Part shown: one piece after another, positions 1 to 26,007 of the stretch
Layout of the letters: the number at the start of each line of letters is the position of its first letter
How positions within the stretch are numbered: the stretch's first letter is position 1
Source of the DNA: Actinomycetota bacterium
GTDB lineage: Bacteria; Actinomycetota; Thermoleophilia; Gaiellales; Gaiellaceae
Reading direction: 5' to 3'
Length of the DNA stretch: 64,000 bases
Assembly (NCBI GenBank): GCA_003161615.1
Contig: PMOB01000014.1
Coordinates: 1 to 64,000 of the forward strand
The notes under the pieces: model-generated
Told to the model about the DNA's origin: nothing
The model's input: only the letters and a program-made list of their open reading frames with translations
Database searches by the model: none
Position numbers and translations under genes: made by a program

Positions 1-1406
1 CCGATGTCCTGCATCGCCGTGATCACGGTGGCGCGGCCGTCGGAGCCGACCCGCACCCAGGCGTAGGACGGAGGGCCGCCGCCGCCGTACCAGATCTGGC
101 TCGCCATCCCGACACCGCGCTTCCACGTCGCGTCGGACCGGCCGCGCACTTCGTGGCGCCGCTCCCAGTGCGGCTCGGCGAGGCGGTAGCAGTCCGCGAG
201 ATTCTTCGAGGAGAACGGCACGCCGTCGTTCGAGCCGGCGTAGTTGCGGCGGCGCAGCTCGAGCGGATCCATGTCCAGCTTCGCGGCGAGCTCGTCGACG
301 AGGCATTCGAGCCCGAACGTCCCCTCGACGAAGCCGGGCGCGCGGAACGCCTTCATCGGCGGCGTGTTGACCTTCGCGCCGTACGTGACCGTGCGGACGT
401 TCTCGCAGTCGTAGAGCATCTTCATCGGCCCCTCGGTCGAGGCGTTCCAGCCCGACCAGCCGACCGCGTTCGTGAACTCGCCGTCGAGCGCGACGATCGT
501 CCCGTCGCTGCGGGCGCCGGCGCGGAGCCGCTGGATCGTCGCGTTGCGGTTCCCGGCGGCCGTGTGCTCCTCGCGGCGCGTCAGCGCGCAGCGCACCGGC
601 CGTCCCGTCCGCTTCGCAAGCTCGGTGGCGACGTACGTGTACTCGTCCGGGCTGTTCTTCGAGCCGAAGCCGCCGCCCATGAACTCGCAGACGACGCGCA
701 CCTTGTCCTGCGGCAGCTCGAGCGTCTCGGCGATCGACTCCCGCACGCCCCAGATGAACTGCGTCGAGATGTAGACGTTGAGGACGTCGCCGCTCCACTC
801 GCAGATCGCCTGGTGCGTCTCCATCGAGTTGTGGAGGACGGTCTGCGTGCGGTAGGTCGCCTCGACGACGACGTCGGCCTCGGCGAGCGCGCGCTCGACG
901 TCGCCGCGGTCGTAGTGCCGCGGGTCGGCGGTGAACTGCTCGCGCCGGACGGCCTCGTGCGGATCGAGCACGACCTCGAGCTCCTCCCACTCGACGTCGA
1001 TCGCCGCTGCGGCGGCGAGCGCCTGGCGGTACGTGTCGGCGGCGACGGCAGCGACCGGCGCGCCGGAGAAGCCCGCCTCGTCGACGAGCCCGTGCGAGTC
1101 GCCGGGGCCGATCGCGGCGCGGACGCCGGGGAGCGTGAGCGCCGGAGCGAGGTCGATTCGCTTCACCTGCGCGTGTGCGTGCGGCGAGCGGAGGATGACG
1201 GCCTGGAGCATCCCGGGCAGGCGGATGTCGGCGGTGAAGCGCGCTTCGCCCCGCACGCGCTCGAGGCCGGACTTGCGCGGCGCGGGCCTGCCGACGACCG
1301 TGAGCGGCCCTTCCGGCCACTGCTCGAGCGGATCCTCCTCGACGACGACCCAGACCTCCTCGTAGCGCCCCTCGACCTCTTTCTCGGTCCGGATCAGCCT
1401 TGCCAC
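1..1406 (-). CDS. Xanthine dehydrogenase-family molybdenum-binding subunit (3' part missing)
   Basis: Large subunit of a molybdenum hydroxylase, which carries the molybdopterin cofactor and oxidises a purine or another heterocycle or aldehyde. The reading frame starts at a GTG that overlaps the stop of the 2Fe-2S gene by 13 bases and runs off the left edge of the window. Recognisable stretches are the N-terminal GEARFTADI, QVKRIDLAPAL, a FMGGGFGSK motif typical of the cofactor-binding domain, and AFRAPG in the loop where xanthine dehydrogenases have AFRGFG and form I CO dehydrogenases have AYRCSFR. The absence of AYRCSFR argues against a CO dehydrogenase. Substrate cannot be read from the sequence. 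No FAD subunit lies upstream; it could lie beyond the edge. Confidence 0.88.
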   Translation of the reverse strand, partial: MARLIRTEKEVEGRYEEVWVVVEEDPLEQWPEGPLTVVGRPAPRKSGLERVRGEARFTADIRLPGMLQAVILRSPHAHAQVKRIDLAPALTLPGVRAAIGPGDSHGLVDEAGFSGAPVAAVAADTYRQALAAAAAIDVEWEELEVVLDPHEAVRREQFTADPRHYDRGDVERALAEADVVVEATYRTQTVLHNSMETHQAICEWSGDVLNVYISTQFIWGVRESIAETLELPQDKVRVVCEFMGGGFGSKNSPDEYTYVATELAKRTGRPVRCALTRREEHTAAGNRNATIQRLRAGARSDGTIVALDGEFTNAVGWSGWNASTEGPMKMLYDCENVRTVTYGAKVNTPPMKAFRAPGFVEGTFGLECLVDELAAKLDMDPLELRRRNYAGSNDGVPFSSKNLADCYRLAEPHWERRHEVRGRSDATWKRGVGMASQIWYGGGGPPSYAWVRVGSDGRATVITAMQDI

Positions 1407-1834
1407 GTGAGAATCGCCTCCTCGATCTTCGGATACGTGCCGCAGCGGCAGATGTTCCCCGCCATCGCGTGCCGGATCTCCTCGCGCGTCGGCTGCGGGC
1501 TCGCAGCGACGAGGGCGGCCGCGGAGACGACCTGGCCCGGCGTGCAGAAGCCGCACTGGACGGCGTCGGTGCGGACAAACGCCTCGATGAGCGGGTGGTC
1601 GCGCAGGCCCTCGATCGTCGTCACCTCGCCGGCGACGGCGTGAACGAGCGTGATGCAGGAGAGGTGCGGCGCGCCGTCGATCTGGACGGTGCAGGCGCCG
1701 CAGTGACCCTCGTTGCACGCGATCTTGGTCCCGGTCAGGCCGAGCCGGTCGCGGAGCACCGACGCGAGACTCGTCCCGACTGCGGCATCGAGGACGTGCT
1801 CCTCGCCGTTGATCGTGAGCCGCACCTCGCTCAT
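1394..1834 (-). CDS. 2Fe-2S subunit of a molybdenum hydroxylase (CoxS/XdhC-type)
   Basis: Electron-transfer subunit of the same hydroxylase, 146 residues, the usual length for the family. The plant-type ferredoxin cluster ligands are visible in CNEGHCGAC with a later Cys (SCITL), and the second [2Fe-2S] cluster ligands in CGFCTPG and CRCGTYP. The ATG chosen overlaps the stop of the upstream amidohydrolase gene as ATGA; upstream in-frame codons read arginine-rich and are not protein-like. It passes electrons from the molybdenum centre of the downstream large subunit to an FAD subunit that is not present in this window. Confidence 0.93.
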   Translation of the reverse strand: MSEVRLTINGEEHVLDAAVGTSLASVLRDRLGLTGTKIACNEGHCGACTVQIDGAPHLSCITLVHAVAGEVTTIEGLRDHPLIEAFVRTDAVQCGFCTPGQVVSAAALVAASPQPTREEIRHAMAGNICRCGTYPKIEEAILTWQG

Positions 1835-2979
1835 GTCGAAGTCACCGCCACGGTGTCCGCGATCTGGATCAGCCGGACGGCGGTACGAGCGACGGTGCGC
1901 CGCTCGGCCTCGTCCTCCACGTCGGGCAGCGTGCGCCACAGGTCGCGCGCCGCGACGAGCAGCTCCCGGATCTGGTCGAGCTCCTCGCGGTGCGCGCCGT
2001 TCGGCTCCTCCGTTGCGTTGAGCGCGAGGCCGAGCGCGCCGAAGGCGTCGGGCTGGCGGATGAAGAGAAGTGGCATGGCCATCGAGAGGTACTGGTGGAT
2101 ACGCGCCTGCGCGAGCGGCTGCGCGAGCGTCTCGAGCCCCTGCGGCTGCGACGGCTCGAGCGGCTCGGAGCCGTCCGCGATCCGGTTCGCGTTGCCCGCG
2201 AACATGTCCCGCATCTGGCGGTCGTCGAAGCCGGCCACCTGCGCGACGCGCAGCGAGAGGAGGAGCGAGCCGGGCTGCTGGCCGTACGGATAGTCCGAGG
2301 CGTAGACGACCTGCTCGGGCGGCACGAGGCGCAGCAGGCAGAGCAGATCGATGGCGCTCCAGACGGAGGTGTCGAAGAAGACGCCTCGCTTGCCCGAGAA
2401 GCGGTTCGCGAGATTGGCGAGGTCGGCGATGCCGGCGTGGGCGAGGATCAGCTGGGAGCCGGGATGCGCGTCGACGAGCCGCTCGAGCCCTTCCGCGATC
2501 GGCGGCAGGCCGCGGCCTGCGTGGATCAGGACCGGGACGCGGCGCTCGGCGGCCAGCTCGAAAACCGGCGCGAGCCGGTCGTCGGTGAGGAGGAACTTCT
2601 GCGCGCGGGGATGGAGCTTGATGCCGCGCGCGCCGAGGTCGAGGCAGCGGCGCGCCTCCTCGATCGGCCCCTCGTCGAGTGCGAGCCGCACGAACGGGAC
2701 GAGCTTGCCGTCCGCGCGTGCGGCGAACTCCAGCGTCCGGTCGTTGCCAGCGCGGAAGCCGGGATGACGATCGGGCTCGTCGAGACAGAACATGTTGGCT
2801 CGCGAGACGCCGTAGCGCTCCATGCCGCCGACGAGCTCCTCGTAGACGCCGAGCATCCCGTCGATGTCGGTGCCGAGGTGGGTGTGCGCGTCGAAGATCT
2901 CCAGATCGGCTGGGAGAGCGGCACGCAGGCGTTCGTCCCAGCCTGCTACGACCTCCCGTCCTCGTTCGAGCGCGTCCAC
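1831..2979 (-). CDS. Amidohydrolase (Amidohydro_2-type TIM barrel) with C-terminal helical extension
   Basis: 382 residues. The N-terminal part has the metal-dependent hydrolase signature: FDAHTHLG (HxH), a lysine in GIKLHPRA, HAGRG, HAGIADL and SDYPYG with the late aspartate. The last 110 or so residues are a helical, acidic extension outside the barrel. It heads an operon with the two molybdenum hydroxylase genes (stop overlaps the next start as ATGA), so it probably acts on the same heterocycle or ring-opened product. The specific substrate is not inferable. Alternative: a decarboxylase of the same superfamily, since these also keep the HxH and late Asp. Confidence 0.8.
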   Translation of the reverse strand: MDALERGREVVAGWDERLRAALPADLEIFDAHTHLGTDIDGMLGVYEELVGGMERYGVSRANMFCLDEPDRHPGFRAGNDRTLEFAARADGKLVPFVRLALDEGPIEEARRCLDLGARGIKLHPRAQKFLLTDDRLAPVFELAAERRVPVLIHAGRGLPPIAEGLERLVDAHPGSQLILAHAGIADLANLANRFSGKRGVFFDTSVWSAIDLLCLLRLVPPEQVVYASDYPYGQQPGSLLLSLRVAQVAGFDDRQMRDMFAGNANRIADGSEPLEPSQPQGLETLAQPLAQARIHQYLSMAMPLLFIRQPDAFGALGLALNATEEPNGAHREELDQIRELLVAARDLWRTLPDVEDEAERRTVARTAVRLIQIADTVAVTST

Positions 2980-3064
2980 CTCAGGAATCTAGCGGCGTCC
3001 TTGACCCTTCCGTCCTGCTCTGTCACCTTGGTTGGCCAACAGAGGGATCCGGGAGGAGACTGCG

Positions 3065-3598
3065 GTGAAGGTCAAGGTTGTTCTGGCGTACGTGCTCGTG
3101 TGCGCGACTGCTCTGGGAATCGGCGCGGGGACGGCCGCCGCGAAGAAGAAGCCGAAGACGGCCGCGGCTCCAGTGGCGCTGAAGATCCTGCCCACGGCGA
3201 AGCTCAACTCGCTCACGGGCGGCAACTTCGCGATCGCCCCGCTCGGCTCCGGTGAGAAGAGGCCGAAGTCCGGCGCCGCCTGGAACGGCACGGCGACCGA
3301 TTACGCCACTCCCACCGACGACTACACCCAGAATCCGTTCGCGCACGACGTGACGCTGAACTTCTTCGTCGGCAAGGCGATGGTCGCCAGGGAGTGGAAG
3401 GTCTACACGCATCCTCGCGGCGCGACCGCGACGCCCGTCTCGGGGATCGGGACGAAGGCAGTCGAGGCGAACGACTACATCGCCGTCGTCAAGGGGCAGG
3501 AGATGTTCCAGATGTGGGCCGGCAACAACGGTGGCCAGCACATGACCTACGCCCAGCTCGAGACGGTCGCGAAGTACATCGTCTCCAAGCTCAAGTAG
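3065..3598 (+). CDS. Exported protein of unknown function
   Basis: 177 residues starting at a GTG preceded by a strong GGGAGGAG Shine-Dalgarno (3051-3058). The N-terminus VKVKVVLAYVLVCATALG is a signal peptide ending near TAAAKKK. The mature part is globular, with no cysteine and no transmembrane segment (for example LPTAKLNSLTGGNFAIAPLG, FFVGKAMVAREWKVYTH, QTYAQLETVAKYIVSKLK-like C-terminus). I do not recognise the family. It is followed by a long hairpin and by a second exported protein on the same strand. Export is well supported; function is not. Confidence 0.75.
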   Translation: MKVKVVLAYVLVCATALGIGAGTAAAKKKPKTAAAPVALKILPTAKLNSLTGGNFAIAPLGSGEKRPKSGAAWNGTATDYATPTDDYTQNPFAHDVTLNFFVGKAMVAREWKVYTHPRGATATPVSGIGTKAVEANDYIAVVKGQEMFQMWAGNNGGQHMTYAQLETVAKYIVSKLK

Positions 3599-3630
3599 CG
3601 GAACGCCCCCTGTCGGCCGCGTGCCGACTT

Positions 3631-3673
3631 CGTGCCAACTCCCGAAAGGACACTTTCGGGAGTCGGCGGCACG
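3631..3673 (+). terminator. Long perfect hairpin between two exported-protein genes
   Basis: Arms ACTCCCGAAAG (3638-3648) and CTTTCGGGAGT (3653-3663) are perfectly complementary around a GACA loop. The stem extends through CGTGCC (3631-3636) and GGCACG (3668-3673) across an asymmetric internal loop. There is no T-run after it, so it is either a terminator without a U-tract for the upstream gene or a structured 5' leader of the downstream gene, whose start lies 15 bases beyond. Confidence 0.6.
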
Positions 3674-3688
3674 CGGTACGACGGAGGG

Positions 3689-4732
3689 ATGAAGAAACTC
3701 CTCGCTCTCCTCTCGGTTCTCGCCGTCTCCCTCAGCGCCGCGGCTGCCGGTGCGAGCGGCGCAGGCAGCATCGTCGTCGCCGAGGTCTTTGCGGCAGGCG
3801 GCAACAGCGGCGCTGCGTACGCGAACGACTACGTCGAGCTCGTCAACCGCGGCAGCGGCTCGGTCGACGTCGGAGGCTGGACGCTCCAGTACGCGTCCGC
3901 GGCGGGCACGACATGGCAAACGACCGCGCTGACGGGGGCGATCCCCGCCGGCGGGCACTATCTCGTCGAGCTCGCCTCGGGCGGGTCGAACGGAGCCGCG
4001 CTGCCCACACCCGACGCGACAGGCACCCCGAACCTCGCGATGACGGGCGGCAAGGTCGCGGTGGTCAGCGGCGGGACGGCGCTCGCGTGCGGCGCGTCCG
4101 CGGAAAGCTGTTCGGCCGTAGCGTCCGTGGAAGACCTCGTCGGCTGGGGCAACGCAAGCGACTACGAAGGCGGCGCAGCGCCGGCGCTCAGCTCGACGAC
4201 CGCGCTCGCGCGCGCGGGTGGCGGTTGCACCGATGGCGACGACAACTCCGCGGACTTCGCGACCGCGACGCCGAATCCCGAGAACTCGTCGGCGAGCTCG
4301 GCCGCCTGCTCGTCGACAGGCTCGGGCGGCGGGAGCCAGTCCGGCAGCGTGGATCTCGACCTCCAGCCCGTTCTCTCGGTCGCCCTCGAGCACGACACGC
4401 TCAGCTTTGGCGCTGCGCTGCCGGGAACGACGCCCGCTCCGCTCGGCGAGCACGTCACCGTGACGAGCAACGACTCGAGCGGCTACACGCTCACGGTGCA
4501 GCGGACGGCGTTCACGCCGCACGACCTGCCGCTCGGGATCGGCGTCGGCAGCGGCGCGCTGGCGGCGGTTCCGGTCGCGCCCGACTCGGCGCTTCTCCTC
4601 GCGACCGCGACCGGACCGAGCGGTGCCGGAGGAGACGACTGGGCGACGAACGTCGGCTTCGTCTCGCCGCTCCCGAATCTGCCGTCGGGGCACTACACGG
4701 CGGCGATCACGTTCACGGTGATCGGACGGTGA
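3689..4732 (+). CDS. Exported lamin-tail-domain (LTD) protein
   Basis: 347 residues beginning MKKLLALLSVLAVSLSAAAAG, a clear signal peptide. Residues about 25-170 form a lamin tail domain: IVVAEVFAAGG, NDYVELVNRGSG, VGGWTLQY, IPAGGHYLVELA, then VEDLVGWGNASD and ARAGGGCTDGDDN. The remainder after a Gly/Ser linker (about 195-347) is a beta-rich domain (HDTLSFGAALPGT, VTVTSNDSSGYTLTV) resembling the cell-surface WxL/CalY-type fold; that comparison is inference. LTD domains are common in secreted nucleases and surface proteins. The stop overlaps the next start as GTGA, so it is coupled to the DUF916-like gene. Confidence 0.78.
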   Translation: MKKLLALLSVLAVSLSAAAAGASGAGSIVVAEVFAAGGNSGAAYANDYVELVNRGSGSVDVGGWTLQYASAAGTTWQTTALTGAIPAGGHYLVELASGGSNGAALPTPDATGTPNLAMTGGKVAVVSGGTALACGASAESCSAVASVEDLVGWGNASDYEGGAAPALSSTTALARAGGGCTDGDDNSADFATATPNPENSSASSAACSSTGSGGGSQSGSVDLDLQPVLSVALEHDTLSFGAALPGTTPAPLGEHVTVTSNDSSGYTLTVQRTAFTPHDLPLGIGVGSGALAAVPVAPDSALLLATATGPSGAGGDDWATNVGFVSPLPNLPSGHYTAAITFTVIGR

Positions 4733-5442
4733 GGCGGGTCGGAGCCGCGCTCCTGGTCGCGGCGGCGGTCTTCGCGCCAGGCGCCGCCGCCGCCACCGGG
4801 CTCAGCGTCAGCCCGCTGCGGCTTGCACTCGTCGGAGCGTCGCGCGCGACGCTCATCGTCGGCAATCCGAGCGGCCGGACGCTCTATGTCGACGTCGGCC
4901 CGGCGGGATTCGCGCGCACGCTGCGCGGGCGGCCGCGCGTCCAGGCGGCGCACGGCGCTGCGGGCTGGCTCAGCGTGCGTCCACGCCGGCTCCGGCTCGC
5001 GCCACACGCGAAGGCGACGCTGCGGCTGACCGTAAGGCCCCCGGCGAATGCGAGACCCGGCGACCATCCGGCCCTCGTCCTGCTCTCCACGCGGCAGCCG
5101 GGGGAGCGTCGGGTCCGCGTCCTGCTGCGCGTAGGAATCGTCGTGCTCCTCCGCGTCCCCGGCAAGATCGTGCGGCGGCTCCAGCCGCAGAAGCTCTCGG
5201 TGCGGCGGCGCGGCCGCATCCGCGTCTTCGACCTGCGCCTCGCCAATCGCGGCAACGTCACCGAGCGGCCGCGGCCTCGGCTCGAGCTCTGGCGGCACGG
5301 CAGGAAGCTGGCCGTCCTGCACGGGCGCCGCCTCGACCTGCTGCCACACAGCGCCGGCATCGCCCAGTTCGCCTATCGCGGCTCGGTGCGGGGCGCCGTC
5401 ATCGCGCGGATCATGGCCCGTTCGTTTCGGCTCCGGCTGTGA
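4729..5442 (+). CDS. Exported DUF916/WxL-interacting-like protein
   Basis: 237 residues from a GTG that overlaps the preceding stop. N-terminal signal peptide (VRRVGAALLVAAAVFAPGAAA), then LSVSPLRLAL and VGNPSGRTLYVDV, followed by LRLAPHAKATLRLTV and ARPGDHPALVLLSTR. The pattern of an N-terminal beta strand with a conserved SP.R, then L.P....L.V..P...PGDH, is that of DUF916 and related PapD-like periplasmic or surface-binding domains. The second half is very Arg/Leu rich. It probably binds the LTD protein or the cell wall. The last 32 bases overlap the 3' end of the convergent redox gene. No C-terminal anchor is evident. Confidence 0.6.
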   Translation: MRRVGAALLVAAAVFAPGAAAATGLSVSPLRLALVGASRATLIVGNPSGRTLYVDVGPAGFARTLRGRPRVQAAHGAAGWLSVRPRRLRLAPHAKATLRLTVRPPANARPGDHPALVLLSTRQPGERRVRVLLRVGIVVLLRVPGKIVRRLQPQKLSVRRRGRIRVFDLRLANRGNVTERPRPRLELWRHGRKLAVLHGRRLDLLPHSAGIAQFAYRGSVRGAVIARIMARSFRLRL

Positions 5443-6067
5443 TGCGGCGGATGAACTCCGCCTCGGGAACGGCGCCGTCCCACCGCGGCTCGCCGTCGAC
5501 GACGATCCGCGGCACGGCGTAGACGCCCATCTCCTGCGACAGCTGAGGAAACTCGTTCGCCTCGATCGCAGCGGCCGACACCCGCTCGGAGGCGAGGGCG
5601 CAACGGAACGCCAGCAGCACGGCCGGCGGGCAATGCGGTCAGGTCGGGGTGACGAAGACGTCGAGCGTGAGGTCGCGGTCGAGCTCCTCGAGCGCGGTGA
5701 TCGACTCCGGCCGCAGCGATGACTCGCTCCGCCCCGCCTCGACGACCCCGCCGACGAGCGAGCCCATCTCGTAGCCCCACGGCAGACCGTCGTAGCGCAC
5801 GCCGGCGTCGCGTCCGTCCGGCCGGATGGAGATGGACGGGAAGCGCGGGAATCCCGGCGGCTCCTCCTCGACCCGGCAGGTCACGCTCTCGCCGAGCGCG
5901 GCGAGCCCTTCCGCGAGCCGCAGCGTCTCGGCGCCGAAGTCCATGTCGCCGGCCCCCGCCGGCGGCGCCTCCTCCGGCCCCAGGGCGACAAGCAGCTCAA
6001 CGGGACGGTCGAGCTCGGCGAACCAGCCGCGGATCTTCACCTCGTCTTCGGCGCGCACGACTCCCAT
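5411..6067 (-). CDS. Selenocysteine-containing glutaredoxin-like protein disulfide oxidoreductase (in-frame TGA at 5639-5641)
   Basis: Read through TGA, this is a 218-residue protein of two thioredoxin folds, matching the archaeal-type glutaredoxin-like protein disulfide oxidoreductase family in length and layout. The N-terminal unit (1 to about 115) has no CxxC. The C-terminal unit reads DVFVTPT-U-PHC-PPAVLLAF, with Sec (residue 143) exactly where the first Cys of the CPxC motif sits, and continues to the cis-Pro motif YAVPRIVVDG. Without readthrough the protein would end one residue before its active site. The ATG lies 6 bases after the stop of the other Sec gene. A 7-bp stem-loop follows the TGA. 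The fold is certain; Sec insertion is inferred from context and selD. Confidence 0.85.
5609..5628 (-). promoter_or_regulatory. Candidate bacterial SECIS stem-loop of the disulfide oxidoreductase gene
   Basis: On the minus strand CGCCGGC pairs with GCUGGCG (7 bp, one G-U) around the loop CGUGCU. With the U of UGA as base 1, the stem starts at 14 and the loop covers 21-26, with GU at 22-23. This is almost the spacing and loop composition of the E. coli fdhF element, whose critical GU is at 23-24. Seen by eye, not folded computationally. Confidence 0.6.
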
Positions 6068-6073
6068 GCGCCG

Positions 6074-7486
6074 TTATGCCCGCGCCTGGAGGGATTCGAT
6101 CGCGCGCTCGAGCTCGTCGAGGCGCGCCGCGCCGAACTCGCGCACCGTCCCGTCGGCGTCGACGACGACGTTGGTCGGGACGCCGCGCACCCCGAGCTCG
6201 CCGGCGAGCTTCGCCTCGGGGTCGAGCAGGATCGGCCCTTTGATCCCCCACATGTCGCAGAAGCGCTCGACCTCCGGCCGCGGCTCTGTCCCTTCCCAGA
6301 TGTCCACCAGCACTACCTCGACGCCCGACCGGGCGGCCTCGCGTAGGCGCAGCTCCTCGAGGAACGGCGCCTCCGCGTTGCACGGTCCTCACCAGGAGGC
6401 GAAGAAGTTGAGGATGTACTTCTTCTCGGCCCAGTTCCGGTTCGTGCGGCGCTCGCCCGTCCAGTAGTCCTCGAGCGCGAACTCCGGGATCCGCTTGCCG
6501 ATCCACGGGCTCGGCTCCTCGATCACAGGCACCGGCGGCCGCGCCGCGAGCAGGTCCTCGACGATCGACAGGGTCTGGCTGCCCGCGTTGGCGACGAGGA
6601 CGCGCCCGTCGTGCGGGTCGACGACGACGCCGCCGGGCCCGTTGCCGACCGGGATCTGGGTCCACTCGGTGCGGTCGGCGACGCCGATCACGCTGAGGGA
6701 GCCGGCGCCGCGGTTCGTGACGTAGATCCGGTCGTGCGCCGGCGCGATGGTCAGGCCGACGGGCGCCTGGCCGGTGCGGATCTCCTCCACGATCTCGTAC
6801 GAGTCGAGGTCGACGCGCGAGACGGTGCCCGCGATCGAGTTGACGATGAACGCCTCGCCGCGCTCGGGAACGATTCCGATCGCGCAAGTGCCGGTGCCGA
6901 GCTCGAGCCGCCCGACCTCCTCGAACGAGTCGGCGTCGTAGAGATTCGCGGACGCGGCGACGAAGTTGACGCAGACGACGAGCTTGCGAGTCGGATCGAC
7001 GCCGATCGCGCCGGCGCCGGGCTCCGCATCGACGGTGGCGACCGTCTCGAGCGTGTCGAGGTCGATCACGCTCATCGTTGAGCCGAGCGAGTTGCCGACG
7101 TAGAGGCGCCGGAACTCGGGGACGTGGGTAAGCCCGGACGGATAGCCGCCGACCGGAATCACCGTCTCCACCGCGAGCGTCGCCGAGTCGATGATCGTCA
7201 CCTGGTCGGAGTGGGCGTCCGCGGTGAAGACACGGCCGGTCTCCTCGTCGAGGCCGATGTCGATCGGCTCGGCGCCCGTCGCGATCTCCGCGATCACAGC
7301 GTGCTCTTCGAGATCGACGACCGAGACGAAGTCGCTGCGGGAGCAGGCGACGAAGGCGCGGCGCCGTGCAACGTCCACCGCGATTCCCTCCGGATCGAGG
7401 CCGACGGGGATCTCGGCGATCTGCCGCCAGGGAGTCCGCGCGTCGATTCGGCAGGCTGCGCCGACGGGGAAGACGGCCTCCTCCAT
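6074..7486 (-). CDS. Beta-propeller/TlpA-like thioredoxin fusion with selenocysteine (in-frame TGA at 6389-6391)
   Basis: 470 residues if TGA is read as Sec. Residues 1 to about 325 are YVTN/NHL-type beta-propeller repeats (GLDPEGIAVD, TGAEPIDIGLDEETG, VGGYPSGLTHV, NGPGGVVVDPHDGRVLV). Residues about 335-470 are a TlpA/AhpC-type thioredoxin domain: IPEFALEDYWTGE, YILNFFASW-U-GPCNAEAPF, LVDIWEGTE, and GVRGVPTNVVVD with the cis-proline. U366 replaces the first Cys of WCGPC. No signal peptide is visible, so it appears cytoplasmic, unlike classical TlpA. It is first in a two-gene operon with the other Sec protein. The alternative of a nonsense mutation would require two identical lesions in adjacent genes. 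Confidence 0.85.
6363..6379 (-). promoter_or_regulatory. Candidate SECIS hairpin of the propeller-thioredoxin gene
   Basis: Minus-strand AAC-GCG pairs with CGC-(bulged C)-GUU around the tetraloop GAGG. Counting U of UGA as 1, the loop is at 19-22. Competing pairing CCGUG/CGCGG nearby is also possible, so the structure is less certain than for the neighbouring gene. Confidence 0.4.
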
Positions 7487-7545
7487 GGCCCGAGTATCCC
7501 GGTTTGCGCATCAAGCGCGAAGAGGGACCGTCTAGGATCGCCGCC

Positions 7546-8682
7546 ATGACCGACGTCCTGATTTACGCCGATTCGATGCGCTCTGCCGACATGCGGCACG
7601 CCGTGCCGCTCGCCGTGCCCGACCCCGTCCTCTACGCCGAGGCGAGCGGAACGAAGCACATGTTCACGCACTCGATGGAGGCCGCGCGCCTGCGCGAGCT
7701 CGGGCTGTTCGACGTCCACGTCTCCGAGGAGTTCGGGGTCGACGAGCTGATGCAGTCCGGGCTCAAGCGGCAGGAGATCCGCGCCCAGATCGCGGTTCGC
7801 CAGGTTGCGAGCCTCGGGCTGAAGAAGGCGTCCGTTCCCGAGGAGTTCCCCGTCTGGCTCGCCGATCGCCTGCGGTCCGAGGGCATCGAGATCGTGCCGG
7901 ACCAGGATCTCTTCGACGATCGCCGCCGCTCGAAGACCGAGGCGCAGCTCGCCGGGATGCGGCGCGCGCAACGCGCGGCCGAGGCGGCGATGGACACGTG
8001 CCGGGACATGCTCCGCCGCTCCGAGATCCGCGGCAACGACCTGATCCTCGACGGCGAGCCGCTCACGGTCGAGCGCGTCAAGGCGGCTATGAACGTCACG
8101 TTCGCCGAGCACGACACGACGCCCGACGAGTACATCGTCGCGCCGGGAGCGCAGGGCGCGGTCGGCCACGACATGGGCTCCGGCCCGATCGCCGCCAACA
8201 CGCCGCTCGTCGTCGACATCTTCCCCAAGGACAACTCCTCGGCCGTGTTCACGGACATGACACGCACGTTCGTCGTCGGCGAGGTGGCGGACGACGTGCG
8301 GGAGTGGCATCGCCTCTGCAAGGAGGCGCTCGACCGCGCGCTGTCAGAGATTCGCGCGGGCGTGGAGGGCAAGGCGGTCTTCGACGGCACGTGCGAGATC
8401 TTCGAAGCCGCCGGCGAGTTGACGCCCCGGACGAAGACGCCGGGCGAGCCGCTCGTGGACGGCTTCTTCCACGGGCTCGGCCACGGCGTCGGCCTCCAGG
8501 TGCACGAAGCGCCCGGGATGGGCCTCATCTCCGACAAGAAGCTCGTCGTGGGCGACGTCGTGACGGTCGAGCCGGGCCTCTACCGGCAGGGCTACGGCGG
8601 CGTCCGGCTCGAGGACATCGTCGTCGTCACCGAGAACGGCATCGAGAACCTCACGCAGTATCCGTACGACCTCGCGCCGTGA
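7546..8682 (+). CDS. M24-family metallopeptidase (Xaa-Pro aminopeptidase-like)
   Basis: 378 residues. The pita-bread catalytic domain occupies about 150-378 and shows all five metal ligands: Asp in VVDIFPKD, Asp in TDMTRTF, His in HGLGHGVGL, Glu in VVTVEPGLY and Glu in GVRLEDIVVV. The N-terminal 140 residues form the creatinase-like domain. The ATG was chosen because it opens the conserved region 60 bp from the divergent redox operon. The final stop overlaps the acetyl-CoA synthetase start as GTGA. It is likely a cytoplasmic dipeptidase or aminopeptidase; the exact specificity is not readable. Confidence 0.87.
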   Translation: MTDVLIYADSMRSADMRHAVPLAVPDPVLYAEASGTKHMFTHSMEAARLRELGLFDVHVSEEFGVDELMQSGLKRQEIRAQIAVRQVASLGLKKASVPEEFPVWLADRLRSEGIEIVPDQDLFDDRRRSKTEAQLAGMRRAQRAAEAAMDTCRDMLRRSEIRGNDLILDGEPLTVERVKAAMNVTFAEHDTTPDEYIVAPGAQGAVGHDMGSGPIAANTPLVVDIFPKDNSSAVFTDMTRTFVVGEVADDVREWHRLCKEALDRALSEIRAGVEGKAVFDGTCEIFEAAGELTPRTKTPGEPLVDGFFHGLGHGVGLQVHEAPGMGLISDKKLVVGDVVTVEPGLYRQGYGGVRLEDIVVVTENGIENLTQYPYDLAP

Positions 8683-10652
8683 GCGACCCCACGCCGGCGC
8701 ACTCGATCGAGACGATGCTCCTCGAGGAGCGGACGTATCCGCCGCCCGCGGACTTCGCGGCGCAGGCAAACGCGCGAGGCGACATCTACGACGTCCCGTT
8801 CGAGGAGTTCTGGGAGCGGGAGGGCCGGGAGCGGCTGACCTGGTTCGAAGCCTTCAACGAGCTCTACGAGTGGGAGCCGCCGTACGCGAAGTGGTACCTC
8901 GGCGGCAAGCTCAATGTCTGCTTCAACTGCGTCGACCGGCACGTCGAAGCGGGCGCGGGCGAGCAGGTCGCGTTCCACTGGGAGGGCGAGCCCGACGGCG
9001 AGACCCGCACGATCACCTACGCGGACCTCCAGCGCGACGTCGTCCGCTTCGCGAATGCGCTCAAGAAGCTCGGCGTGCGCAAGGGGACGCCGGTCGCGAT
9101 CTACATGGGGATGGTCCCGGAGCTGCCGGTGGCGATGCTGGCGTGCACGCGGCTCGGCGCTCCGCACACCGTCGTCTTCGGCGGCTTCTCCGCCGACTCG
9201 CTCTCGGGCCGGATGAACGACATGAAATGCGAGGTCCTCATCACCCAGGACGAGGCCTGGCGGCGCGGCTCGACCGTCCCGCTGAAGAAGGTGGCCGACG
9301 AGGCGATGGCCGACGCGCCCGCCGCGAAGAGCTGCGTCGTCCTCCGCCGCACCGGCAACGACGTGCCGATGCAGGAGGGCCGCGACCACTGGTGGCACGA
9401 GCTCGAGGCGGACTGCTCCGACGACGCCGAGTCGTGTCCGTGCGAGCCGATGGATAGCGAGGACCTGCTCTTCCTCATGTACACGAGTGGCACGACCGCG
9501 AAGCCGAAGGGAATCATCCACACGACTGCCGGCTACCTCACCGGCGTCGCGGCGACGCACAACTACATCTTCGACCTGAAGCCCGACTCCGACGTCTACT
9601 GGTGCGCCGCCGACATCGGCTGGATCACCGGCCACAGCTACATCGTCTACGGGCCGCTCTGCAACCGCACGACGTCCGTCCTCTACGAAGGGACGCCGGA
9701 CTTCCCCGACAAGGACCGCTGGTGGTCGATCGTGGAGAAGTACAAGGTGACGATCCTCTACACGGCGCCGACGGCGATCCGCTCGCACATGAAGTGGGGG
9801 CCGGAGTTCGCGCAGCAGCACGACCTCTCGTCGCTGCGCCTGCTCGGCTCGGTCGGCGAGCCGATCAACCCGGAGGCCTGGATCTGGTACCGCGAGAACA
9901 TCGGCGCCGACCGGACGCCGATCGTCGACACGTGGTGGCAGACCGAGACGGGGATGATCCTGATCACGCCGCTGCCGGGGATCACGACGCTGAAGCCGGG
10001 CTCGGCGACACGCCCCTTCCCGGGTGTCGATGCCGGGATCTACGACGAGCAGGGCAACGAGGTCGGTCCGGGCGGAGGCGGCTACCTCGTCCTCAAGAAG
10101 CCGTGGCCCGCGATGCTGCGCGGCATCTTCGGCGACGACGAGCGGTACCGCGAGACGTACTGGTCGCGCTACGAGGACGTCTACCTCGCCGGCGACGGCG
10201 CGCGGATCGACCGGGACGGCGACTTCTGGCTGCTCGGCCGGATCGACGACGTGATGAACGTCTCTGGCCACCGCATCTCCACGATCGAGGTCGAGTCGGC
10301 GCTCGTCGACCACCACGACGTCGCCGAGGCCGCGGTCTGCTCCCGCGCGGACGCGGTGACGGGCGAGGCGATCGTCGCCTACGTGACGCTGAAGGGTGGC
10401 GCCGACGGTTCGGTCGAGAAGCTCGAGGAGCTCCGCAACCACGTGGCGGAGAAGATCGGGCCGATCGCGAAGCCCGCGAACATCGTCTTCACGCCGGAGC
10501 TTCCCAAGACCCGCAGCGGCAAGATCATGCGCCGCCTGCTTCGGGACGTCGCGAACAACCGCCAGCTCGGCGATACCACGACGCTCGCCGATCCGACCGT
10601 GGTCTCCGAGATCGCGAAGCGGGCAACGGAGGAGAAGTCCGAAGACGCCTAG
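8679..10652 (+). CDS. acs: Acetyl-CoA synthetase
   Basis: 657 residues, the normal length for AMP-forming acetyl-CoA synthetase, converting acetate, ATP and CoA to acetyl-CoA. Diagnostic motifs are YTSGTTAKPKGIIHT (ATP loop), the IGWITGHSY block, WWQTETGM (acetate pocket with the family Trp), and the C-terminal PKTRSGKIMRR whose Lys is the acylation-regulated catalytic residue. The start is a GTG overlapping the preceding stop codon. A deacetylase partner is not seen nearby. A related propionyl- or acyl-CoA synthetase is the only realistic alternative. Confidence 0.93.
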   Translation: MSDPTPAHSIETMLLEERTYPPPADFAAQANARGDIYDVPFEEFWEREGRERLTWFEAFNELYEWEPPYAKWYLGGKLNVCFNCVDRHVEAGAGEQVAFHWEGEPDGETRTITYADLQRDVVRFANALKKLGVRKGTPVAIYMGMVPELPVAMLACTRLGAPHTVVFGGFSADSLSGRMNDMKCEVLITQDEAWRRGSTVPLKKVADEAMADAPAAKSCVVLRRTGNDVPMQEGRDHWWHELEADCSDDAESCPCEPMDSEDLLFLMYTSGTTAKPKGIIHTTAGYLTGVAATHNYIFDLKPDSDVYWCAADIGWITGHSYIVYGPLCNRTTSVLYEGTPDFPDKDRWWSIVEKYKVTILYTAPTAIRSHMKWGPEFAQQHDLSSLRLLGSVGEPINPEAWIWYRENIGADRTPIVDTWWQTETGMILITPLPGITTLKPGSATRPFPGVDAGIYDEQGNEVGPGGGGYLVLKKPWPAMLRGIFGDDERYRETYWSRYEDVYLAGDGARIDRDGDFWLLGRIDDVMNVSGHRISTIEVESALVDHHDVAEAAVCSRADAVTGEAIVAYVTLKGGADGSVEKLEELRNHVAEKIGPIAKPANIVFTPELPKTRSGKIMRRLLRDVANNRQLGDTTTLADPTVVSEIAKRATEEKSEDA

Positions 10653-10803
10653 AGGCTTGGCTCCGTCGGGGCCGAATGGTAGAAACGCACCTCTGCGGAT
10701 AGCGGCGCAGGTCGAAGGCACTCCAACGGGCGGCTCCGGGTCAGGTGCCAACTGGACCGCCGACCTCGCAACGAAACGCCGCTGTTCGCTTTCTTCGCTG
10801 GAT

Positions 10804-10828
10804 GCGCCGGGCCCTCGGGCCCGTGCGC
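10804..10828 (+). other. GC-rich hairpin downstream of acs
   Basis: GCGC-CGGGCC-CTCG-GGCCCG-T-GCGC forms a 10-bp stem with one bulged T, in the 200-base gap after acs. There is no T-run. It could act as a factor-dependent terminator or belong to the leader of the next gene. The rest of 10653-10850 shows nothing recognisable. Confidence 0.4.
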
Positions 10829-10853
10829 GCCCGCGTTGAGCCATAGTGCGGTG

Positions 10854-11144
10854 ATGTTCACCCTGGTCAACCACCATCACCTCTCGGAACCGATTCCGGA
10901 TTCGGCCTACGCGGAGCTCACCGCTCGTTTCCCCGAAATGCGTGAGCGCGGGCTGCGAACATTCCAGATCATCGAGGTGGCTGCCGACCACGTAATCCTG
11001 GTCGCTGTCTTCGACTCCGGCGAGGCAGCGGACACGGTCAGCGAACTAATAGGCAGCCCCTGGTTGCGCGAACACGTGATTCCACGACTCTCGAGCCCGA
11101 CCGAGCAAAGCGTCGGCGAAGCGATCTTCTCGCTCGGGTTCTAA
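10854..11144 (+). CDS. Small hypothetical protein, dimeric alpha/beta-barrel-like
   Basis: 96 residues (MFTLVNHHHLSEP...). The pattern beta strand, helix (SAYAELTARFPEMRERG), strand (FQIIEVAADHVILVAVFDS), helix (EAADTVSELIGSPWLREHV) recalls ABM/EthD-type ferredoxin-like folds, but no family motif fixes a function. A GTG three bases earlier is an equally possible start. It is flanked by the first copy of the 31-bp repeat. Codon choice is less biased than in the neighbours, hinting at an acquired gene. Confidence 0.55.
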   Translation: MFTLVNHHHLSEPIPDSAYAELTARFPEMRERGLRTFQIIEVAADHVILVAVFDSGEAADTVSELIGSPWLREHVIPRLSSPTEQSVGEAIFSLGF

Positions 11145-11196
11145 CGCCGGATCCGCAACACGTTCACCGCGTGAGCCAGGTGAGAGTCCCGCTGGG

Positions 11197-11227
11197 CTGC
11201 GCCAGTGTTCGGAAATGTCGCCCGACC
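11197..11227 (+). repeat. 31-bp dispersed repeat, copy 1
   Basis: Core GCCAGTGTTCGGAAATGTC; differs from copy 2 at five of 31 positions. It lies between the ABM-like gene and the 3' end of the phosphotransferase gene. Confidence 0.75.
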
Positions 11228-11275
11228 TCGGGTCGGACGCGGATCGCGTCCGGACGGTCGATTCGCTACTGCAGC

Positions 11276-12034
11276 TCAGGGCGCTCGGACTTCGGCGAGC
11301 CGCTCGGCTGCGAACTCGTGATACCCGCTGGTGTAGCCGAGGGCGGCGTCCCAGGCGGCCCACGCTTGCGCGGCAACGTCGTAGGTGTCGTCGTCGAGAC
11401 CGACGGCGTTGTATGGCAAAACCAGGTCGAGGTCGGGGACGTCGACCCGCGACTCATCCCAGTCGATCAGCCCGACCCGATCCGCGGTCATGCGGATGTT
11501 GCCCGGGGTGGGGTCGCCGTGCACGACGCACCGCTCTCGTCCGCTGAGCCGCGCCCAAACTGCTCGGCATCGAGCGACACCCTCCGGCGGCATCGCGCCA
11601 AGGTCGATCCTCGTCGCGGTTTCCACGTGCAGGAAGTCGATCGACGACCGCCAGCCCGGACGCTGGGGCCAGTCGCGCGTCAATCGGTGCAACTGGCGGA
11701 ACGTGTCGGCGACACGACGCCACTCGGCCTCCGTTTCGGGTGGCCCGCCCTCCACGTAGCTCATCACGACCAGACCATCGACGAAGTCCCGGCCGTCGGT
11801 GGTCGGAATCGGCACCGGCACCGCCATCCCTTCACGATCGAGGTATCGCAGCAACTCCGTTTCCCACGCCAGGTCGACGTCGCTGCGCCGATCGCTGCGC
11901 CTGCCGAGCCGAGCGACGGCGAGCTGCCCGTTGACGCGCACGCTCCACACCTCGTTGACGCCTCCGGCAGTGAGCGGTTCGATCCGAGCGACGTCCTCGC
12001 CCCACCGATCGAGTGCCTCCCATCCCACGGCCAC
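11276..12034 (-). CDS. Aminoglycoside-phosphotransferase-family kinase
   Basis: 252 residues. The APH/choline-kinase fold is shown by LTAGGVNEVWSV (nucleotide loop), VVHGDPTPGNIR (catalytic loop with the HGD and Asn of the family) and VGLIDWDES (metal-binding Asp). The family phosphorylates small hydroxylated molecules such as aminoglycosides, macrolides, homoserine or fructosamine. Nothing here points to a resistance role. The gene stands alone, bounded on both sides by copies of the 31-bp repeat, with reduced codon bias compared with the core genes around it. Confidence 0.82.
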   Translation of the reverse strand: MAVGWEALDRWGEDVARIEPLTAGGVNEVWSVRVNGQLAVARLGRRSDRRSDVDLAWETELLRYLDREGMAVPVPIPTTDGRDFVDGLVVMSYVEGGPPETEAEWRRVADTFRQLHRLTRDWPQRPGWRSSIDFLHVETATRIDLGAMPPEGVARCRAVWARLSGRERCVVHGDPTPGNIRMTADRVGLIDWDESRVDVPDLDLVLPYNAVGLDDDTYDVAAQAWAAWDAALGYTSGYHEFAAERLAEVRAP

Positions 12035-25008: not shown

Positions 25009-26007
25009 GTGGAGACGGCAGGACTGACGAGCCTCACCGTCGGGGGCGGCTGCGCGGCGAAGTATTCGGCGGCGCGGCTCGAGGAGCTGCTGCGCGGCTT
25101 CGTGCCGGCGGAGGCGGAGGATCTCCTCGTCGGCCTCGATCCGGCGGACGACGCAGCGGTCTACCGGCTGGACGACGAGCGCGCGCTCGTCTTCACGGTC
25201 GACTTCTTCCCGCCGCTCGTCGACGACCCGCGCCTCTTCGGCCGCATCGCCGCGACGAACGCTCTCAACGACGTCTTCGCGATGGGCGGGACGCCGCTCC
25301 TCGCCCTTTCGATCGCGGCGTTTCCCGAGGAGCTGCCGACCGAGACGGTCGCCGCCGTCTTCGCCGGAGCGGACGAGCAGGTGCGCGCCGCGGGGGCGAT
25401 CCTCGCCGGCGGCCACACGATCCGCGACGCCGAGCCGAAGTACGGGCTCGCGGTCGTCGGCACCGTCCACCCCGACGGCATCTGGGTGAAGAGCGGCGCG
25501 CGGCCCGGCGACGCCGTCTTCCTGACGAAGCCGCTCGGCACCGGTCTCGTGCTCGCGAGCAAGGGCGACGCGGAGGAGGCGGCACGCTGGATGACAACCC
25601 TCAACGACCGCGCCGCCGAGGTGCTCCGCTCCTTCTCGCCGCACGCGGTCACGGACGTCACAGGCTTCGGGCTCTTCGGGCACACGCACGAGACGGCCGA
25701 GCGCAGCGGCGTGCGGATCGTCCTCGAGGCCGCGTTGTTCCCGGCTCTGGCGGGCGCGCTCGAGGCTGCACGGGCCGGGACGCGAACGGGCGGCGACCCG
25801 CGCAACCGCGAGTTCGCGCCGGTCGAGGCGGACGGCGTTCCCGAGGAGCTGCTCGCGCTTGGTTACGACGCGCAGACGGCGGGCGGCCTGCTCGTAACGC
25901 TGCCGGCGGACAAGGCGCTCTCGCTCGAGGCGGAGTTCCAGCGGCAAGACCTCTTCCTCGCCCGGATCGGGTCGGTGGAGGAAGGCGAGGGCGTTGTCGT
26001 CCGTTAG
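25009..26007 (+). CDS. selD: Selenide, water dikinase (selenophosphate synthetase)
   Basis: 332 residues from GTG. The N-terminal loop LTVGGGCAAKYSA matches the E. coli GAGCGCK segment, with Cys and Lys at the positions of Cys17 and Lys20; the second Cys is Ala, as often tolerated. ATP-binding elements follow: DDAAVYRLDDE, FTVDFFPPLVDDP, NALNDVFAMGG, LAGGHTIRDAEPKYG, TDVTGFGLFGH and DAQTAGGLLVTLP. It makes selenophosphate from selenide and ATP, the donor for selenocysteyl-tRNA (and selenouridine). Agrees with the two UGA-interrupted redox genes at 5411-7486. selA, selB and selC are not in the window. Confidence 0.92.
   Translation: METAGLTSLTVGGGCAAKYSAARLEELLRGFVPAEAEDLLVGLDPADDAAVYRLDDERALVFTVDFFPPLVDDPRLFGRIAATNALNDVFAMGGTPLLALSIAAFPEELPTETVAAVFAGADEQVRAAGAILAGGHTIRDAEPKYGLAVVGTVHPDGIWVKSGARPGDAVFLTKPLGTGLVLASKGDAEEAARWMTTLNDRAAEVLRSFSPHAVTDVTGFGLFGHTHETAERSGVRIVLEAALFPALAGALEAARAGTRTGGDPRNREFAPVEADGVPEELLALGYDAQTAGGLLVTLPADKALSLEAEFQRQDLFLARIGSVEEGEGVVVR

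Follow-up and report, generated by a model that had tools for sequence, protein, structure and literature searches.

The minus-strand gene at 5411-6067 of the window (the whole 64,000-nucleotide stretch of DNA that was analysed) almost certainly inserts selenocysteine (Sec) at an in-frame TGA, and on sequence grounds this residue would lie in the single active site of the enzyme. The gene starts with ATG at 6067-6065 and stops with TGA at 5413-5411. In the standard code the open reading frame ends after 142 aa at the TGA of codon 143 (5641-5639, minus strand), which stands where a CPHC site would have its first cysteine (FVTPT-U-PHC); with this TGA read through, the product is of 218 aa and has UPHC at residues 143-146. 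The codon of the resolving cysteine C146 (5630-5632, minus strand) specifies a residue that is invariant in a 56-protein alignment. An earlier sequence-only reading had the coordinates, the motif and both lengths correct, the strand being absent from it. We consider it very probable that the gene encodes a Sec-containing thiol:disulfide oxidoreductase of the PDO/AhpF-N-terminal-domain kind, in which UGA codon 143 is read as Sec via SelB and a SECIS element.

A set of 129 genomes of the order (Gaiellales) was used to search for orthologues of this PDO-like gene. Orthologues spanning the site were found in 18 genomes including the window's own, which represent three genera of one family in separate assemblies, and all 18 have TGA at the position of codon 143. 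A nineteenth match (G111) spans the N-terminal part only and is left out of this count. The named records of the relatives are mostly separate MAGs of Thermoleophilia/Actinomycetota, one of them labelled Gaiella sp. The lineage therefore always has U at this position as far as the same-family sequences spanning the site are concerned, which the earlier reading had asked, and either U or C is found in sequences from other families. Comparison with the Cys homologues, also proposed there, shows that Cys fills the same alignment column as U143. On counting differences among the five closest sequences, we obtained 172 silent and 78 replacement differences for the part that follows the SECIS codons, and 373 and 328, respectively, for the part upstream. 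By this measure the sequence 3′ of the TGA is under protein-level coding constraint. It could be argued that the TGA is really TGC or TGT, altered by a sequencing or assembly error, or that it is a true nonsense mutation in a decayed gene, as the assemblies are MAG-type drafts and in one relative (G110, locus L030) the C-terminal PDO half occurs a second time in decayed form. But sequencing error is ruled out since all 18 orthologues share the TGA codon, and decay does not agree with a downstream half that is intact and under constraint in a genome with Sec machinery, which leaves this explanation with next to no probability. The earlier claim that the TGA cannot be sequencing noise is thus confirmed at the sequence level; it is real, with conserved orthologues, and due neither to chance nor to noise.

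The window's genome encodes SelA, SelB and SelD together with a tRNA-Sec with UCA anticodon, and the gene for SelD (selenophosphate synthetase, Cys form, GGGCAAK) is present in the window itself at 25024-25914 on the plus strand. SelA was found in 82 of the 129 genomes of the order and in all 5 PDO-bearing genomes that are at least 90% complete. The search for SelA did not find it in four less complete PDO-bearing genomes (G106, G108, G059 and G063), where draft incompleteness could be the reason. A candidate bacterial SECIS hairpin, CGCCGGC-CGUGCU-GCUGGCG, is located at 5609-5628 on the minus strand (apical loop CGUGCU, 5616-5621), corresponding to nt 14-33 when counted from the U of UGA, with nt 14-20 pairing with nt 27-33 and the loop at nt 21-26. 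It has a 7-bp stem, a 6-nt loop with G-U at loop positions 2-3, a spacing of 17 nt and an energy of -11.4 kcal/mol. All these values lie within the criteria quoted for bSECIS elements, namely a loop of 3-9 nt, a stem of 4-16 bp, an early G[G/U] in the loop, a spacing of 16-37 nt and MFE <= -7.5 (PMC13188914). Along with the UGA aligned to the Cys of homologues and the SelA, SelB, SelD and tRNA-Sec genes of the genome, a bSECIS by published criteria is a further sequence feature expected of a bacterial selenoprotein.

The hairpin by itself is weak evidence, because, with our own coding of the bSECIS criteria (stem of at least 6 pairs), such a hairpin is found by chance after about 5% of the window's TGA triplets (about 1% at -11.4 kcal/mol). 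Also, the window's own 51-nt segment has a different structure as its MFE fold, and the SECIS hairpin appears there as the centroid structure, as well as being the alignment consensus. The strong evidence for a SECIS is the conservation of the hairpin codons and not the hairpin alone. Codons +4 to +10 (CCG CCG GCC GTG CTG CTG GCG) are nearly frozen in the 18 PDO genes, for which protein identity goes down to 47%. Pairwise comparison of these codons gives no replacement difference and 62 silent ones, of which 45 are one C/U site in the loop (position 25) and the remaining 17 one change of the bottom pair. From codon +14 onward, conservation is back at background. Silent-site conservation over codons +1 to +10, a range chosen with the hairpin location already known, is higher than in other conserved codons (permutation p = 0.0006). 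Covariation support for the stem was not found in the 18-gene alignment, as the stem hardly varies.

Such a freeze of silent sites 3′ of the TGA fits a SECIS as judged from these codons, and not a plain stop. If the UGA were a real stop, the product would be the 142-residue N-terminal fold seen as an ORF in the standard code, with the downstream half perhaps translated separately; but this form would be without any conserved redox residue and the TGA is fixed at the Cys position of the homologues, which makes this reading very improbable. A similarly small chance is given to decoding of the UGA as another amino acid, either Trp or Cys by near-cognate readthrough, which does occur in general, or under a changed code. 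Against this, the PDO-like gene and the convergent gene (at 5440-5442) both terminate with TGA, and both in-frame TGAs of the locus, the other being in the upstream gene described below, take the position of the first active-site Cys in a genome that has SelABCD.

Pfam identifies Thioredoxin_3 in the C-terminal half of the protein, and its best NCBIfam match is TIGR02187 (PDO_seleno_TRX, E 2.1e-44), followed by AhpF (2e-18). The TIGR02187 score of 151.4 bits is lower than the NCBI equivalog cut-off of 185, so that the protein is filed with the kind and not as a strict TIGR02187 equivalog. An AlphaFold2 model, for which 56 window and locus sequences were the input and Cys was modelled in place of Sec, has two thioredoxin folds with a pLDDT of 94.7, and its best Foldseek matches are PDO of P. 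horikoshii and P. furiosus (TM 0.86-0.88) and the AhpF NTD (0.81-0.84). The UxxC site, U143-P-H-C146, belongs to the second thioredoxin fold, and in the model U143-C146 is just ahead of helix 146-159, as in thioredoxin sites. These analyses agree with the earlier description of the downstream half as thioredoxin/glutaredoxin-like. The N-terminal CxxC is missing from all 18 PDOs of the clade; residues 42-45 of the window protein (5933-5944, minus strand) are MDFG in the alignment, as against CATC, CASC or CHEC in class relatives. Since the N-terminal CxxC is lost throughout the clade, U143/C146 is the only redox pair that the alignment shows as conserved, in line with the earlier view that the Sec site is the only redox centre.

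The class relatives carry a CxxC in their N-terminal fold, their C-terminal site is mostly of the Cys form, and one (L033) has CASC along with UPHC. Ten genomes from elsewhere in the phylum, belonging to the three families f29, f46 and f49 (L121-L127 and L129-L131), have Sec, with TGA at the same active-site column, and, unlike the window PDO, all keep the N-terminal CxxC. The Sec-PDO genes of L129-L131 have predicted hairpins with a CGUG loop. In a quick tree, the window's clade forms one side of a branch (100*), all its members having Sec and none the N-terminal CxxC, and at least 4 U/C changes are required across the tree. The genome scan outside the clade used patterns that contain active-site Cys codons, because of which Sec forms there are under-counted. 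Some Cys relatives have lost the N-terminal CxxC as well. Since the quick tree does not place the PDO of the clade within the AhpF-type group, the clade seems to have lost its N-terminal centre independently of that group.

Sec-containing homologues of the TIGR02187/AhpF-N-terminal family have been catalogued since 2006 (PMC1794560, PMC13188914), and the novelty seen by the sequence-only reading was therefore too high. With the catalogued selenoprotein, the window protein shares the best NCBIfam model, the UxxC site and a bacterial SECIS-like hairpin directly 3′ of the UGA, but it scores below the cut-off, and its clade is without the N-terminal CxxC, which may be a further difference. Archaeal and Aquifex PDOs (1a8l, 1j08, 2ayt) are alike in their two fused thioredoxin folds (TM-score 0.83-0.88), and the C-terminal site is the same in Pyrococcus (FVTPTCPYCP), whereas the archetypal PDO has CxxC in both folds and no Sec, as opposed to one centre with Sec here. 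The AhpF N-terminal domain also has two thioredoxin folds, with CxxC only in the second among the AhpF-type relatives seen, but the window protein is not fused to flavin domains and lies outside the AhpF-type group of the quick tree. Judged by these comparisons, the protein is a genuine, well-conserved addition to a catalogued selenoprotein family, distinguished by the loss of the first redox centre, and no new class of system is opened by it. New here is a variant found throughout the lineage, in which a PDO-type protein retains a single redox centre, based on selenium, and which in the closest relatives has another Sec gene beside it, in a conserved amidohydrolase/molybdenum hydroxylase neighbourhood. 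No literature on selenoproteins in Thermoleophilia or Gaiellales was found, judged by title and abstract. A sequence-conserved SECIS candidate is now available for this Thermoleophilia lineage, and the use of selenoproteins is documented throughout a lineage for which metagenome assemblies are the main source and in which taking the TGA as a stop would truncate the gene at 142 aa.

In the proposed mechanism, the hairpin directly 3′ of the UGA would, as the SECIS, bind SelB, which brings Sec-tRNA-Sec (UCA), so that codon 143 becomes selenocysteine, as the machinery, conservation and hairpin suggest. The predicted product would have two fused thioredoxin folds, the N-terminal one without a redox centre and the C-terminal one bearing U143-P-H-C146 at the start of the active-site helix. 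By analogy with PDO biochemistry, the selenolate of U143 may attack the substrate disulfide, C146 may then resolve the mixed selenide-sulfide to give an Se-S bond, which a thioredoxin-reductase-type enzyme may reduce; a TrxR gene is present in the window's genome. Attack, resolution and reduction by TrxR have been reported for archaeal PDOs (PMC7278568).

The gene immediately upstream (6074-7486, minus strand) encodes a YVTN beta-propeller with a TlpA/ResA-like domain and stops 6 nt before the PDO-like gene on the same strand. It has its own Sec-UGA at 6391-6389 (FFASW-U-GPC), and all six close relatives with sequence at this site (L012-L016 and L029) have TGA there, which bears out the earlier claim of an adjacent redox gene with the same substitution. 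Its DNA is near-invariant for about 35 nt 3′ of the TGA, and with the bSECIS criteria in our coding, where a stem needs 6 pairs or more, no hairpin was found at this UGA. In relatives with long contigs, the gene order is a divergent M24 peptidase, the Sec TlpA-like gene (in the window's subclade), the Sec-PDO, an amidohydrolase, a [2Fe-2S] subunit and molybdenum hydroxylase. This neighbourhood is seen at 3-2979 (minus strand) of the window and in L041-L055. In the window it comprises the M24 peptidase bounding it (7546-8682, plus strand), an Amidohydro_2 protein (1831-2979, minus), which comes immediately after the PDO gene in many relatives, the [2Fe-2S] subunit of the molybdenum hydroxylase (1394-1834, minus) and its large subunit (3-1400, minus), partial and cut by the window edge. 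The amidohydrolase and hydroxylase genes thus occupy 2979-1, with plus-strand genes (about 3032-5442) between them and the PDO gene. In L041 (3100-4001) and L044 (3082-4001), about 0.9 kb lies between the TlpA-like and PDO genes. From this conserved neighbourhood, the adjacent Sec TlpA-like protein or the amidohydrolase/molybdenum hydroxylase may be guessed as candidate substrates or partners. That the single-centre Sec oxidoreductase is dedicated to its neighbours, keeping the amidohydrolase or molybdenum hydroxylase (and the Sec TlpA-like protein of the subclade) reduced or matured, seems doubtful, though if true it would mean that this Thermoleophilia lineage depends on selenium for the pathway concerned. 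The neighbourhood also raised the possibility of a labile-selenium molybdenum hydroxylase, for which the marker yqeB was looked for and not found. No promoter- or terminator-like sites were found in 5000-7700, and the Rfam scan of 1-12000 gave no match above the gathering score. In G110 (L014/L030), the intact gene is followed about 1.3 kb downstream by the degenerate second copy of the PDO C-terminal half, which is without UPHC. The clade's PDO (63% identity) and the same gene order are also present in L049 (JAGWRZ010000060.1), a record labelled Acidobacteriota that is probably a mislabelled MAG.
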